A stretch of DNA of 36,377 bases from a virus. Shown piece after piece: positions 4,756 through 16,085 of the stretch. Made by a program: the position numbers and the translations under genes. Each line of letters opens with the position of its first letter. Within the stretch, counting starts at the first letter, position 1. Location of the stretch: positions 1-36,377 of IMG/VR virus record IMGVR_UViG_3300025778_000043. One strand, written 5' to 3'. The notes below the pieces were generated by a model, which saw nothing but the letters and a program-made list of their open reading frames with translations, made no database searches and was not told the DNA's origin.

Positions 4756-4911
4756 ATGCCATTACGTAAAGGAAAGTCTCGTGAAATCATTTCAGAAAAC
4801 ATTAGCAAACTCACAAAAGAAGGTGGTCGCCCCAGGAAGCAAATTATTGCTATCGCTTTGTCAACGGCTCGTAAACCCAAAAAATCAGCCAAAAGGAAGT
4901 CCAAAAGATGA
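4756..4911 (+). CDS. small basic phage protein, DUF6496-like, 51 aa
   Basis: ATG 4756 follows TAGGAGTAATC, a good ribosome binding site. The product begins MPLRKGKSREIISENIS and contains GGRPRKQIIAIALSTARK, the pattern of the DUF6496 family of short phage proteins (family recalled, not searched). The C-terminus is almost entirely Lys/Arg/Ser. The protein is very basic and could bind nucleic acid. Its stop overlaps the next ATG (ATGA, 4908-4911). Function unknown. Confidence 0.75.
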   Translation: MPLRKGKSREIISENISKLTKEGGRPRKQIIAIALSTARKPKKSAKRKSKR

Positions 4912-5135
4912 GCGACAAAAAACCTAATCTATCCGTTGGCAGAGGTGAGAAGCAGTCTGTTGCAGCAGGTGGTGGACTTACCGCTAAAGGCAGGGCTAAA
5001 TACAACCGTGCTACAGGTAGCAATTTAAAAGCGCCCCAGAAGTCTGGTCCACGTCATAAGTCTTTTTGCGCCAGGTCTAAGAGCTGGAAAGGCGAAAGAG
5101 GCAAGGCTGCTAGACGCAGATGGGGTTGCAGATGA
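4908..5135 (+). CDS. small basic phage protein, DUF6321-like, 75 aa
   Basis: Overlaps the preceding gene by 4 bp. The sequence contains GGLTAKGRAKYNRATGSNL and a C-terminal SFCARSKSWKGERGKAARR block with two cysteines. This pattern is common in small proteins of tailed phages (DUF6321-type, recalled and not searched). Strongly basic and glycine-rich. The stop overlaps the next start (ATGA at 5132-5135). Position between ejection proteins and lysis genes gives no clear role; a nucleic acid or virion association is only a guess. Confidence 0.7.
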   Translation: MSDKKPNLSVGRGEKQSVAAGGGLTAKGRAKYNRATGSNLKAPQKSGPRHKSFCARSKSWKGERGKAARRRWGCR

Positions 5136-7817: not shown

Positions 7818-8507
7818 CTAATTTGGTATGCAAACCATATTAAGAGGGTCTGCTATTACAAACTGGTAACCTCTGCCTACAGCGTCTGCTATAGCCTGTA
7901 CGCCCACGATGTGATGTTCTACCCATAATATGGGTTTAAACGTACTTATGGTGCTTTTAGCGCCTTTTATAGCTTGTATTTCAAAGCCTTCTACGTCAAT
8001 CTTGATAAAGTCGCATCTGGGCAAATCCATAGCATCAATCGTTATTCCTCTTACCATTGAATTACGCATAAATGTGTTTTCTTCGGTTTCTCCAGATTTA
8101 ACCTGAACCGTACCGTAGTCCATCTTCATGCTGTAATCAATAATTGGCAAAATCAAAGATTGAGCACAGTCTGAAATTGCTGCGTTATGGGCGTAAATAT
8201 TGCTTATGTCGTTAAGTGCTATAGACCCACATAGTGCGTTATAAAGGATTCTTTGCGGTTCAAACGCAATAATTGAAATATCCTTGCGTCTGTGCGCAAC
8301 AGGAATACTGAAAAGCCCTATATTTGCTCCTGCGTCTATAACTATCGCTCCAGGTGTCAATTTATCGACAAATTGGAAGATATTTTGTAATTCAGGCTCT
8401 ATGTGAGTACGCCCCGTCTTGGCGAGAGCATCTATTTGAAAATCACAGTTTCTGTTGACTATGATTTTTCCGTAAATAGACTCTACAACGGTAAAGTTGT
8501 TAATCAT
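7818..8507 (-). CDS. FkbM-family methyltransferase, 229 aa
   Basis: A SAM-binding motif I is clear at residues 56-65 (VIDAGANIGL). It is followed by an acidic strand end (IIAFEPQ, about 79-85), and by FIKIDVEGFEIQAIKGA near 165-181, which is diagnostic of the FkbM family of SAM-dependent O-methyltransferases. These enzymes commonly methylate sugar hydroxyls. Its ATG overlaps the stop of the upstream glycosyltransferase (8504-8507), so the two probably act together on a glycan. It is the last gene of the leftward unit. The target may be host surface polysaccharide, a virion glycan or modified DNA; the sequence does not decide. Confidence 0.88.
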   Translation of the reverse strand: MINNFTVVESIYGKIIVNRNCDFQIDALAKTGRTHIEPELQNIFQFVDKLTPGAIVIDAGANIGLFSIPVAHRRKDISIIAFEPQRILYNALCGSIALNDISNIYAHNAAISDCAQSLILPIIDYSMKMDYGTVQVKSGETEENTFMRNSMVRGITIDAMDLPRCDFIKIDVEGFEIQAIKGAKSTISTFKPILWVEHHIVGVQAIADAVGRGYQFVIADPLNMVCIPN

Positions 8508-9366: not shown

Positions 9367-9442
9367 TGGTGAGACGTGCGGGGGTCGAACCCACGACCAA
9401 CAGATTAAAAGTCTGCTGCTCTACCAACTGAGCTAACGTCCC
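9367..9442 (-). tRNA. tRNA-Lys (anticodon UUU)
   Basis: Read on the minus strand from GGGACGT (9442) to the encoded ACCA (9370-9367). The acceptor stem GGGACGT pairs with ACGTCTC (one G-U). The D-arm region contains AGCTCAGTTGGTAGAGC and the T arm contains GGTTCGACCC. The anticodon loop is CTTTTAA with the anticodon at 9409-9407. The 3' CCA is encoded. The AT-rich codon use of the phage would profit from tRNA-Lys(UUU). It sits inside the leftward unit, so it is probably cut from a longer transcript. Confidence 0.95.
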
Positions 9443-14993: not shown

Positions 14994-15217
14994 TCTTTAC
15001 CCTCCTTAAGTACATCCCCAACTGTTTTGTGTATTGCTTTATATCTCCAAAACCAAAGACCATCATAGTAAGCGAACGGCTTACCCGTACGCTCAACGTA
15101 CTCAAGCCATCTAAAATCATGGGCACTTATCTCAACTGGATACCATGCAAACCACTTATGGGGCTTTGATAGTCTCTCTATTTTTTCTAAATGGGTCTCC
15201 CCGAAATCTATCTTCAT
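14990..15217 (-). CDS. hypothetical early protein, 75 aa
   Basis: Rich in aromatic residues (HKWFAWYPVEISAHDFRWLE, then FAYYDGLWFWRYK), suggesting a compact fold. ATG 15217 is preceded by GAGAG and a CCTAACTT leader motif at 15230-15238. Upstream lie two copies of an ATATATAGAGA element, which may belong to a promoter. It follows the structured noncoding region and begins a run of coupled genes. Function unknown. Confidence 0.65.
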   Translation of the reverse strand: MKIDFGETHLEKIERLSKPHKWFAWYPVEISAHDFRWLEYVERTGKPFAYYDGLWFWRYKAIHKTVGDVLKEGKE

Positions 15218-15299
15218 TTTTTTACTCTCAAGTTAGGATTAAATACTCTCTCTATATATATCTACATGGGTCTCTATATATAGTCTTAATACTCTGCTT

Positions 15300-15480
15300 T
15301 TTGGTGGACGTACCTAGCCTCCTAGGTTACGCCTTCAACTATGCTTCTCGGAGCCACAGCACCCGCCAGTCTTACGCTCATGGGGCACTAGCTTCGCCAC
15401 CCCTAGGACTCTCTCAGAGCTTTCCCACAGTAGTCCATTTCCTCTAACCCTGTCGTATAGCAACACCGACAATTAGACGA
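15300..15480 (-). ncRNA. candidate structured RNA, second segment of the 15.3-15.6 kb locus
   Basis: No convincing coding frame is present, and this stretch is visibly richer in G+C than its flanks. Read on the minus strand it holds several short-range helices: TGTCG/CGACA near 15453-15433, GGACT/AGTCC with an inner CTC/GAG helix, GGGG/CCCC enclosing TGGC-GAA-GCTA, TGCT/AGCA, and a long terminal hairpin at 15333-15306 (ACCTAG-GAGG-CTAGGT extended by CGT/ACG and GG/CC). Boundaries are approximate. No known RNA family was recognised with confidence. It may be an independent RNA or the leader of the gene at 15217. Confidence 0.45.
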
Positions 15481-15499
15481 TTACATTCGTTAGGACAAT

Positions 15500-15575
15500 A
15501 AAAAAAGGCTACTTTAAAAACCCCCCTAATCGCGTCCCCGTTATATTGGGGTAGGAGAGTTATCAAAATAGCCTT
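15500..15575 (-). terminator. intrinsic terminator-like stem with U tract
   Basis: On the minus strand the 11-bp stem described for the small RNA ends in TAGCC followed by seven T residues (15506-15500). The loop is unusually large because it contains a second GC-rich helix. It would end both the small RNA and any read-through from the small genes upstream. Confidence 0.55.
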
Positions 15576-15602
15576 ACTTTCTATTGCACGCGACTGCAAT
15601 GG
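15500..15602 (-). ncRNA. candidate small RNA (about 100 nt) with own promoter and terminator
   Basis: Transcription from the extended -10 at 15613-15608 would begin near 15602. The RNA opens with hairpin ATTGCA-GTCGCG-TGCAAT (15600-15583). Next is a long stem, AAGGCTATTTT (15575-15565) with AAAGTAGCCTT (15515-15505), 11 pairs with one G-U. It encloses an inner helix CCTA-CCCC / GGGG-TAGG whose bulge holds CGCGAT (15534-15529). The first hairpin's loop GTCGCG can pair with that bulge, giving a pseudoknot-like contact. A run of T follows the long stem. No open frame of note lies inside. Confidence 0.55.
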
Positions 15603-15607
15603 GGCTA

Positions 15608-15637
15608 ACTATACCACAACTTTATTTATTGGGGCAA
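15608..15637 (-). promoter_or_regulatory. extended -10 promoter for the small RNA
   Basis: Minus strand: TTGCCC at 15637-15632, an 18-bp spacer ending in TGG, then TATAGT at 15613-15608. The TG motif one base before the -10 makes it an extended -10 promoter. It points into the structured segment and no gene start lies within 380 bases downstream. Confidence 0.5.
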
Positions 15638-15646
15638 TTAGGACAC

Positions 15647-15672
15647 TTGGGGGTTTTCTGGCATACCCCCAA
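15647..15672 (-). terminator. GC-rich hairpin after the 44-aa membrane gene
   Basis: TTGGGGG (15672-15666 on the minus strand) pairs with CCCCCAA (15653-15647), 7 pairs, with a 12-base loop. It starts 11 bases past a stop codon and sits just before the small RNA promoter, so it could terminate or insulate. There is no U tract, which lowers the confidence. Confidence 0.35.
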
Positions 15673-15682
15673 CTCCTCACAC

Positions 15683-15817
15683 CTAGAAACCAAGATACAG
15701 CACCACTACACTTGCACCTGCCACAAAAGCCCCTATAAGGTATAGTACTAGGTCTTGGGTGTCTAGTGTCACTTGTGCGCGAGGGGGTTTTTCGATACCA
15801 AAATCGGGTTTATACAT
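15683..15817 (-). CDS. small single-pass membrane protein, 44 aa
   Basis: ATG 15817 has a strong ribosome binding site (AAAGGAG) inside the end of the preceding gene and overlaps it by 8 bp. The N-terminal half is hydrophilic (PDFGIEKPPRAQVTLDTQ); the C-terminal half, LVLYLIGAFVAGASVVVLYL, is a clear membrane helix. Short one-helix proteins like this are frequent in phage early regions, some as antiholins or membrane modulators; nothing here indicates which. It is the last gene before the noncoding RNA-like locus. Confidence 0.68.
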   Translation of the reverse strand: MYKPDFGIEKPPRAQVTLDTQDLVLYLIGAFVAGASVVVLYLGF

Positions 15818-16085
15818 TTTTTTCTCCTTTGTTGTCTAAGTGTTCGCTAATCTCTGCTAACCATTCTCCCGCAAATATAGCCTCATTATCAGGGGGTAAA
15901 TGGGGCAAAGCCTTGATTAAAGTCTTTCTAGCCCCCTCCAATAGTAGGTTCGCATTACCTTTGTTTAATTGCTCTATTTTTCTGTAAATATGCAGCAATT
16001 TAGCATCTAGCCGATTGTCCGTGAGTTCAAGATAATCGGCAAAGACCAGGCGCAATAATTCCATTTCCATCTCTGATAGTTTCAT
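15810..16085 (-). CDS. small helical early protein, 91 aa
   Basis: ATG 16085 overlaps the preceding stop (ATGA). Mostly helical: MKLSEMEMELLRLVFADYLE, then LLHIYRKIEQLNKGNANLLL, with a Pro-rich turn and acidic end. No motif is recognised. It belongs to a chain of five genes linked by short start/stop overlaps (16694 to 15683), implying coordinated translation. Function unknown. Confidence 0.65.
   Translation of the reverse strand: MKLSEMEMELLRLVFADYLELTDNRLDAKLLHIYRKIEQLNKGNANLLLEGARKTLIKALPHLPPDNEAIFAGEWLAEISEHLDNKGEKNV

Follow-up and report, generated by a model that had tools for sequence, protein, structure and literature searches.

Genomic setting and anatomy of the R1 unit

The window analysed here, a virus record from IMG/VR with a length of 36,377 bases, represents a tailed phage whose plus strand carries terminase, portal, and major capsid genes. 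An early region on the minus strand encodes a RecE-like exonuclease, a RecT-like annealing protein, an HNH endonuclease, and many small unknown genes. Within this region, where the initial annotation had rightly placed it in an early operon, lies a minus-strand RNA unit that we named R1, flanked on one side by a 44-aa membrane-like ORF and on the other by a 75-aa unknown gene. The early region is headed by a perfect sigma-70 promoter (TTGACA-16-TATAAT, 17541-17514, minus strand), which places R1, as a terminator, about 2 kb inside the operon. The early strand also carries a complete tRNA-Lys(TTT) gene (9367-9442, minus strand), and tRNA matches were found in related contigs too. A short cysteine-rich frame (15622-15705) that ends CEELGVCQKTPKCPNCPNK overlaps the conserved 44-aa ORF (15683-15817, both minus strand) in a different frame. 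It is conserved in relatives and joined to longer N-termini in some; an overlapping gene or a frameshift is possible.

As shown in Table 1, the extended -10 promoter, the start hairpin, and the long stem with its inner helix and U tract that had been described on this strand are all present. The inner helix of the long stem is CTCCTA/TAGGGG, capped by CCCC/GGGG, and the 3′ bulge ACGCGAT (15535-15529) is complementary to the P1 loop, as had been claimed for the six loop bases GTCGCG. The RNA start had been put near 15602; prediction places it closer to 15600-15602, at the first base of the hairpin. The two-hairpin fold of R1 reached -42.7 kcal/mol (RNAfold, 4 extra flanking bases), and distinct R1 RNAs had folding z values of -4.3 to -7.3. 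The G+C-containing stem of R1 runs straight into a U tract, which is the makeup of an intrinsic terminator, and termination is predicted. The T tract immediately follows the stem in 17/17 elements, and it does so in divergent elements too, in every complete member. The statement that no reading frame lies inside was not literally true, as a 51-codon TTG frame covers R1 (15599-15444). This frame, however, starts at +2, too near the RNA start to accommodate a ribosome site, and in most relatives it is interrupted (7, 2, 11, 2, 10 ... codons), indicating that it occurs by chance; R1 as a coding frame was rejected because the frame is not conserved among relatives.

Table 1. Positions of R1, its parts, and the downstream blocks (window coordinates unless a locus is given)
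Feature	Position	Strand	Description
R1 unit	-35/-10 at 15637-15608; predicted RNA about 15600-15500	minus	from sequence and comparison
Promoter	15608..15637	minus	weak -35 TTGCCC (15637-15632), 18-nt spacer, extended -10 TGG-TATAGT (15616-15608)
P1 5′ hairpin	15583..15600	minus	ATTGCA[GTCGCG]TGCAAT; begins at predicted +1; loop 15594-15589
Terminator hairpin	15507..15573	minus	P2+P3+P4; RNAfold fold, paired-cell counts
P2	15573-15563 with 15517-15507	minus	part of terminator hairpin
P3	15561-15552 with 15528-15519	minus	part of terminator hairpin
P4	15551-15548 with 15539-15536	minus	part of terminator hairpin
Bulge strand CGCGAT	15529..15534	minus	pairs P1 loop 15594-15589 (pseudoknot)
U7 tract	15500..15506	minus	predicted 3′ end of short RNA; directly follows 3′ arm of long stem
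Post-terminator strand CGAATGTAAT (P0)	15480..15489	minus	alternative partner of first 10 nt of the RNA (15600-15591)
RF02932 (Betaproteobacteria-1) RNA	15361..15480	minus	cmscan 90.7 bits (gathering cut-off 49.4), E = 9e-16; just downstream of R1
Type B block	L007 4716-4990		L007, L008, L057, L067
Type C block	L012 144-390		L012
Type D block	L024 4598-4900		L024, L028, L033, L061, L103
Type E block	L068 208-490		L068, L106
Type F block	L077 5943-6230		L077, L086

Helices and pseudoknot are conserved in relatives

Relatives of R1 were gathered from viral contigs with three kinds of query, namely the product of the adjacent 75-aa gene, the 44-aa peptide, and a DNA pattern of promoter plus hairpin. 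The sources are mostly metagenomic fragments, and the distances, blocks, and family size given below hold for the collections that were scanned. An alignment of 15 distinct elements (A4) was built from sequence alone, and the structure was counted afterwards. Across the whole R1 structure, 91.2% of the cells were paired, compared with 72.4 ± 1.3% in shuffles and at most 49.4% when the structure was slid, and 27 of the 37 pairs had changed on both sides. The P2/P3 stem was paired in 92% of the cells, with double-sided changes in 17 of 21 pairs. Pairs 1-4 of P1 were always paired and kept RTTG/CAAY, while the closing pair covaried between A-U and G-C; the apical helix P4 varied in length from 4 to about 14 pairs. 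The six pairs between loop and bulge were formed in 95.6% of the cells, against at most 54.4% in slid controls, and 20 cells had changed on both sides versus 5.9 ± 1.7 in shuffles.

The loop and bulge strands differ widely among members, as in GTCGCG/CGCGAT in the window, GTCGAG/CTCGAC (L008), GTAGTGC/GCACTAC (L028), GTAGTAGT/ACTACTAC (L011), GTAACGGT/ACCGTTAC (L013), and GTTGCTGT/ACAGCAAC in L077, whose near-twin L086 has GTAGCTGT/ACAGCTAC. In a wider set of 40 elements, 28 had their best match between their own loop and bulge, among them 17/17 strict members, and the median score was 18 for own and 9.5 for crossed combinations. This test is independent of the alignment, because the bulges were chosen structure-free by RNAfold. 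More divergent forms with the same logic were found upstream of RF02932 by automated terminator inspection, for example CTTGGCGGG/CCCGCCAAG (L126) and CTTGGCAGG/CCTGCCAAG (L182). As a separate observation, L013 (4357-4453) and L106 (6004-6101) come from different phages and have an identical pseudoknot pair, GTAACGGT/ACCGTTAC, the remainder of R1 being unlike.

Judged from sequence comparison alone, R1 is a conserved RNA whose shape is real and under selection, since related viruses keep the knot while its letters change. The initial annotation had held that the loop-bulge contact exceeds chance, and that its account of the element would be refuted if related phages lacked compensatory changes in the stems; such changes were found in all stems and in the contact itself, and both the covariation and the own-versus-cross test bore the claim out.

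A cmscan search of 15200-15860 against all 4227 Rfam families, with E values up to 10, returned only RF02932 and three sub-threshold chance hits. R1 itself lies outside the RF02932 model and matched no Rfam family, and at the comparative level the description of an undescribed element therefore stands. A genome-collection scan for the host gave five chance matches only, and the window itself had no match in DNA similarity to named phages. Each record searched with the R1 covariance model had a single copy, and these records include MW202484.1, a Manatee Spring podovirus; among named phages, one R1 was found in this podovirus, and RF02932 in Acidovorax phage AP1. R1-type modules occur in many water-borne bacterial viruses. 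A type III toxin-antitoxin RNA, which would have pseudoknot repeats in tandem ahead of a toxin gene, was rejected on the basis of one copy per record, no tandem repeat in the element, and an adjoining noncoding RNA rather than a gene.

The promoter is phased to the 5′ hairpin

Promoter conservation among the hits of the DNA pattern would be circular, because that pattern itself contained the promoter. Promoter phasing was therefore examined in a set of 15 relatives whose retrieval, by protein, BLAST, or RF02932, did not involve the promoter. A TATAAT-like hexamer starting 12 nt before P1 had on average 4.53 of 6 matches, compared with about 1.9 at other offsets (n = 15), and it ended 6-7 nt before P1 in 14/15 relatives. 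This phasing of the -10 hexamer to P1 indicated that the predicted RNA start coincides with the 5′ hairpin. An own promoter and an intrinsic terminator are supported by sequence and comparative phasing, without transcript evidence. At this comparative level, given the stem covariation and the conserved phased promoter, the proposal of a self-contained small RNA gene holds, although a transcript remains to be shown.

The 5′ strand has a second partner past the terminator

A strand that follows closely on the U tract (P0) is complementary as well to the first 10-12 nt of R1, which comprise the P1 5′ strand and loop, as exemplified by CGATTGCAAT versus ATTGCAGTCG (L007), CGGCTGTAAT (L012), TGTGCGGTAA (L103), and GCGGCAAC (L142). 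For 25 elements, the Fisher combined p value was 7e-7, compared with 0.45 in the reversed-strand control, and 0 of 5000 permutations reached the observed total energy. These p values are optimistic because the loci are related, though strand swapping among relatives partly controls for kinship. A count on the MAFFT alignment was dropped because the strand was not in register, and permutation tests were used instead. The P0 of the window is modest, with 9/10 positions pairable (p = 0.18), and some members (L057, L166, and L153) have no clear P0. A complementary strand downstream of the terminator that would allow an alternative fold is thus found at the family level and is weak in the window.

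In read-through RNAs, RNAfold gave P0 a probability of 0.62-1.0 and P1 one near zero in 13/13 cases; this model is free of pseudoknots and leaves the balance of states unresolved. Because the same 5′ strand could also pair the strand past the terminator, the P1 hairpin with its pseudoknot and the long read-through rod are mutually exclusive. The ATTG at 15499-15496 is also able to pair the freed P1 3′ strand. P0 in cis cannot decide termination of the same transcript, since its strand is made only after the terminator. No signal was detected for pairing of the terminator apical/bulge region with downstream RNA (mean rank 8.4 of 16).

R1 precedes RF02932 and other noncoding blocks

Within the window, RF02932 begins 20 nt beyond the U tract, with conserved sequence extending to about 15300. 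A search with the RF02932 core pattern, without R1 in the query, found 86 viral loci (one exact core pattern), and the R1 model matched just upstream of RF02932 at 17 loci with E < 1e-4, usually 10-20 nt before it. In the window as in many phages, the two elements are same-strand neighbours, yet they are different RNAs. In other phages, many RF02932 copies without R1 are placed directly after a gene, indicating that RF02932 does not need R1; in Acidovorax phage AP1, an unannotated copy follows the primase gene. This orphan Rfam RNA, which takes its name from Betaproteobacteria, occurs commonly in viral contigs, L110-L182 among them. Among the papers searched, none on RF02932 or Betaproteobacteria-1 RNA was found.

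Elsewhere, at least five different conserved noncoding blocks (types B-F, Table 1) take this position after R1, and in most cases they span about 240-380 nt up to the first convincing gene. The R1 shared by L007 and L005 is followed by a different block in each, which indicates that the blocks are exchanged. Relatives lacking the module (L009, L107, and L108) indicate that R1 is a removable unit. Blocks B-F had no Rfam match where tested and ordinary folding energy, and calling them structured RNAs is therefore not justified yet. The 3′ ends of blocks C, E, and F resemble one another (CACCCTTGGGGAA..ATG), as do the 5′ ends of D and F. L009, without R1 and RF02932, has AT-rich tandem repeats (CTCAATATAGAAAA, 4858-4957) upstream of the 75-aa gene.

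Comparison with known phage RNAs

The C4 antisense RNA is a phage RNA co-encoded with its downstream target on the same strand. R1 resembles C4 (RF01695) in having a downstream partner on the same strand but differs in ending at its own terminator, and the C4 covariance model had no match in the window. One viral contig (L112) carries a C4 antisense RNA and RF02932 as separate elements (1656-1745 and 7882-8002).

The arrangement inferred for R1 has been experimentally shown for IsrK of the Salmonella prophage Gifsy-1, in which an own promoter and intrinsic terminator yield a short RNA, a read-through form exists, and an IsrK segment is complementary to a stretch downstream of the terminator, giving the long RNA two alternative folds (PMC4825925). 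The stable RNA STnc1160, downstream of IsrK, shares complementarity with IsrK, and the IsrK target lies in the orf45/anrP mRNA (PMC4825925). R1 likewise has its own promoter and terminator, a complementary strand past the terminator (at the family level), and an adjoining downstream RNA. It differs in its loop-bulge pseudoknot, a word absent from that paper (PMC4825925), and in the position of its partner strand, at the edge of a noncoding RNA instead of in an mRNA; trans action of R1 has not been shown. In the P4 leader, the processed CI RNA pairs seqA and seqC and causes termination (PMC4825925). R1 is comparable as a phage early leader that joins an RNA element upstream to a stable RNA downstream and has complementary strands, but RF02932 is not known to pair R1 beyond its own 5′ edge, and P4 is a satellite whereas the phage of the window is tailed, with its own terminase and portal. 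No IsrK or P4 seqA-type covariance model of Rfam matched in the cmscan of 15200-15860; with no Rfam family matching it, R1 was not filed as a member of either.

A possible self-terminating leader

The comparison of relatives supports the promoter phasing, the helices, the pseudoknot, the terminator, the second complementary strand, and the tandem arrangement with noncoding RNAs. Transcription, read-through, switching, and regulatory direction are inferred. Given a 5′ strand with two exclusive partners, an own promoter and terminator, and the IsrK-like arrangement, we propose, with a probability of roughly 0.5, that R1 serves both as a self-terminating small RNA and as a leader whose attenuation gates the downstream RNA and the operon. 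In this model, a host-type promoter would start the RNA exactly at P1, the P1 loop would pair the bulge in the terminator hairpin, and RNA polymerase would normally halt at the U tract, releasing a compact RNA of ~100 nt. A fraction of polymerases would read through, and in the longer RNA the first 10-12 nt would leave P1 and the pseudoknot to pair P0 at the 5′ edge of RF02932, forming a long rod. The module would so gate and time production of the downstream RNA and the operon. The short RNA may also bind the P0 strand of read-through transcripts in trans, as IsrK does in Gifsy-1, an action that is untested here.

The initial annotation had missed the tandem RF02932, the interchangeable noncoding blocks found after R1, and the second strand past the terminator with which the 5′ end could pair. 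With these, an attenuating leader, or one with dual output, becomes likelier than a free-standing sponge. Tentatively, and with somewhat more reserve than for the leader itself, R1 could stand for an undescribed, widespread class of bistable, pseudoknotted promoter-terminator phage RNAs, making up a two-RNA control system together with RF02932 and with unrelated replacement RNAs, and having pairing strands that diversify like an RNA immunity specificity. R1 adds a strongly covarying phage RNA family absent from Rfam and supplies the first functional context known to us for the orphan RF02932. Whether many phages control an early operon via a self-terminating RNA able to pair its own read-through product thereby becomes testable.

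Other explanations were weighed against this leader. R1 could be a free-standing, trans-acting small RNA (a host regulator, a sponge, or a protein-binding decoy) that the pseudoknot makes compact and nuclease resistant, its adjacency to RF02932 reflecting mere clustering of RNA genes. Its own promoter and terminator, its 5′ end locked in a hairpin, and its very stable fold agree with this, and quick sequence change at constant shape suits recognition by shape. We nevertheless consider it unlikely, though not to be dismissed, because the fixed short gap to RF02932 or another block across phages of unrelated sequence, and the covarying complementarity with the post-terminator strand, would be left unexplained. 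That R1 is merely a promoter with a strong terminator or insulator, halting operon transcription ahead of the next unit, the pseudoknot aiding hairpin folding or preventing misfolding, appears rather improbable: every complete member retains the stem followed by a U tract, but a 21-pair hairpin requires no pseudoknot in order to form, and neither a start-phased P1 nor the P0 complementarity would be expected.

A put- or EAR-like RNA acting in cis as an antiterminator, with the pseudoknotted transcript remaining on RNA polymerase and modifying the enzyme, would fit a structured element at the transcript start of an early operon. Its precedent is the put RNA of HK022, described as a promoter-proximal structured phage RNA that suppresses termination in early transcription (PMC9378689). 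R1, however, ends in a canonical terminator, which is unlike put (PMC9378689), and has few invariant bases outside its helices, unlike an RNA presenting fixed bases to polymerase; we regard this explanation as very unlikely. Hardly credible is a region that is part of a replication origin (an RNA primer or R-loop) or a DNA palindrome, with no RNA regulator. DnaA-box sequences do follow the blocks in L007, L008, L057, and L067 and RF02932 in L167, and the read-through form of the unit is one long inverted repeat. Yet 65/69 distinct loci have no TTATNCACA box within -400 to +1200 of RF02932, no DnaA box lies near R1 in the window, the GC skew of the window tracks gene direction, and a pseudoknot has no obvious meaning in duplex DNA. 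A replication origin was thus rejected, DnaA boxes occurring near a few type B blocks and being generally absent near RF02932.

Exact or near DnaA boxes were located directly after type B blocks at L007 4879, L008 4704, L057 7323, and L067 about 8236-8258, and L167 has two tandem TTATCCACA downstream of RF02932; these particular sites are possible origins.
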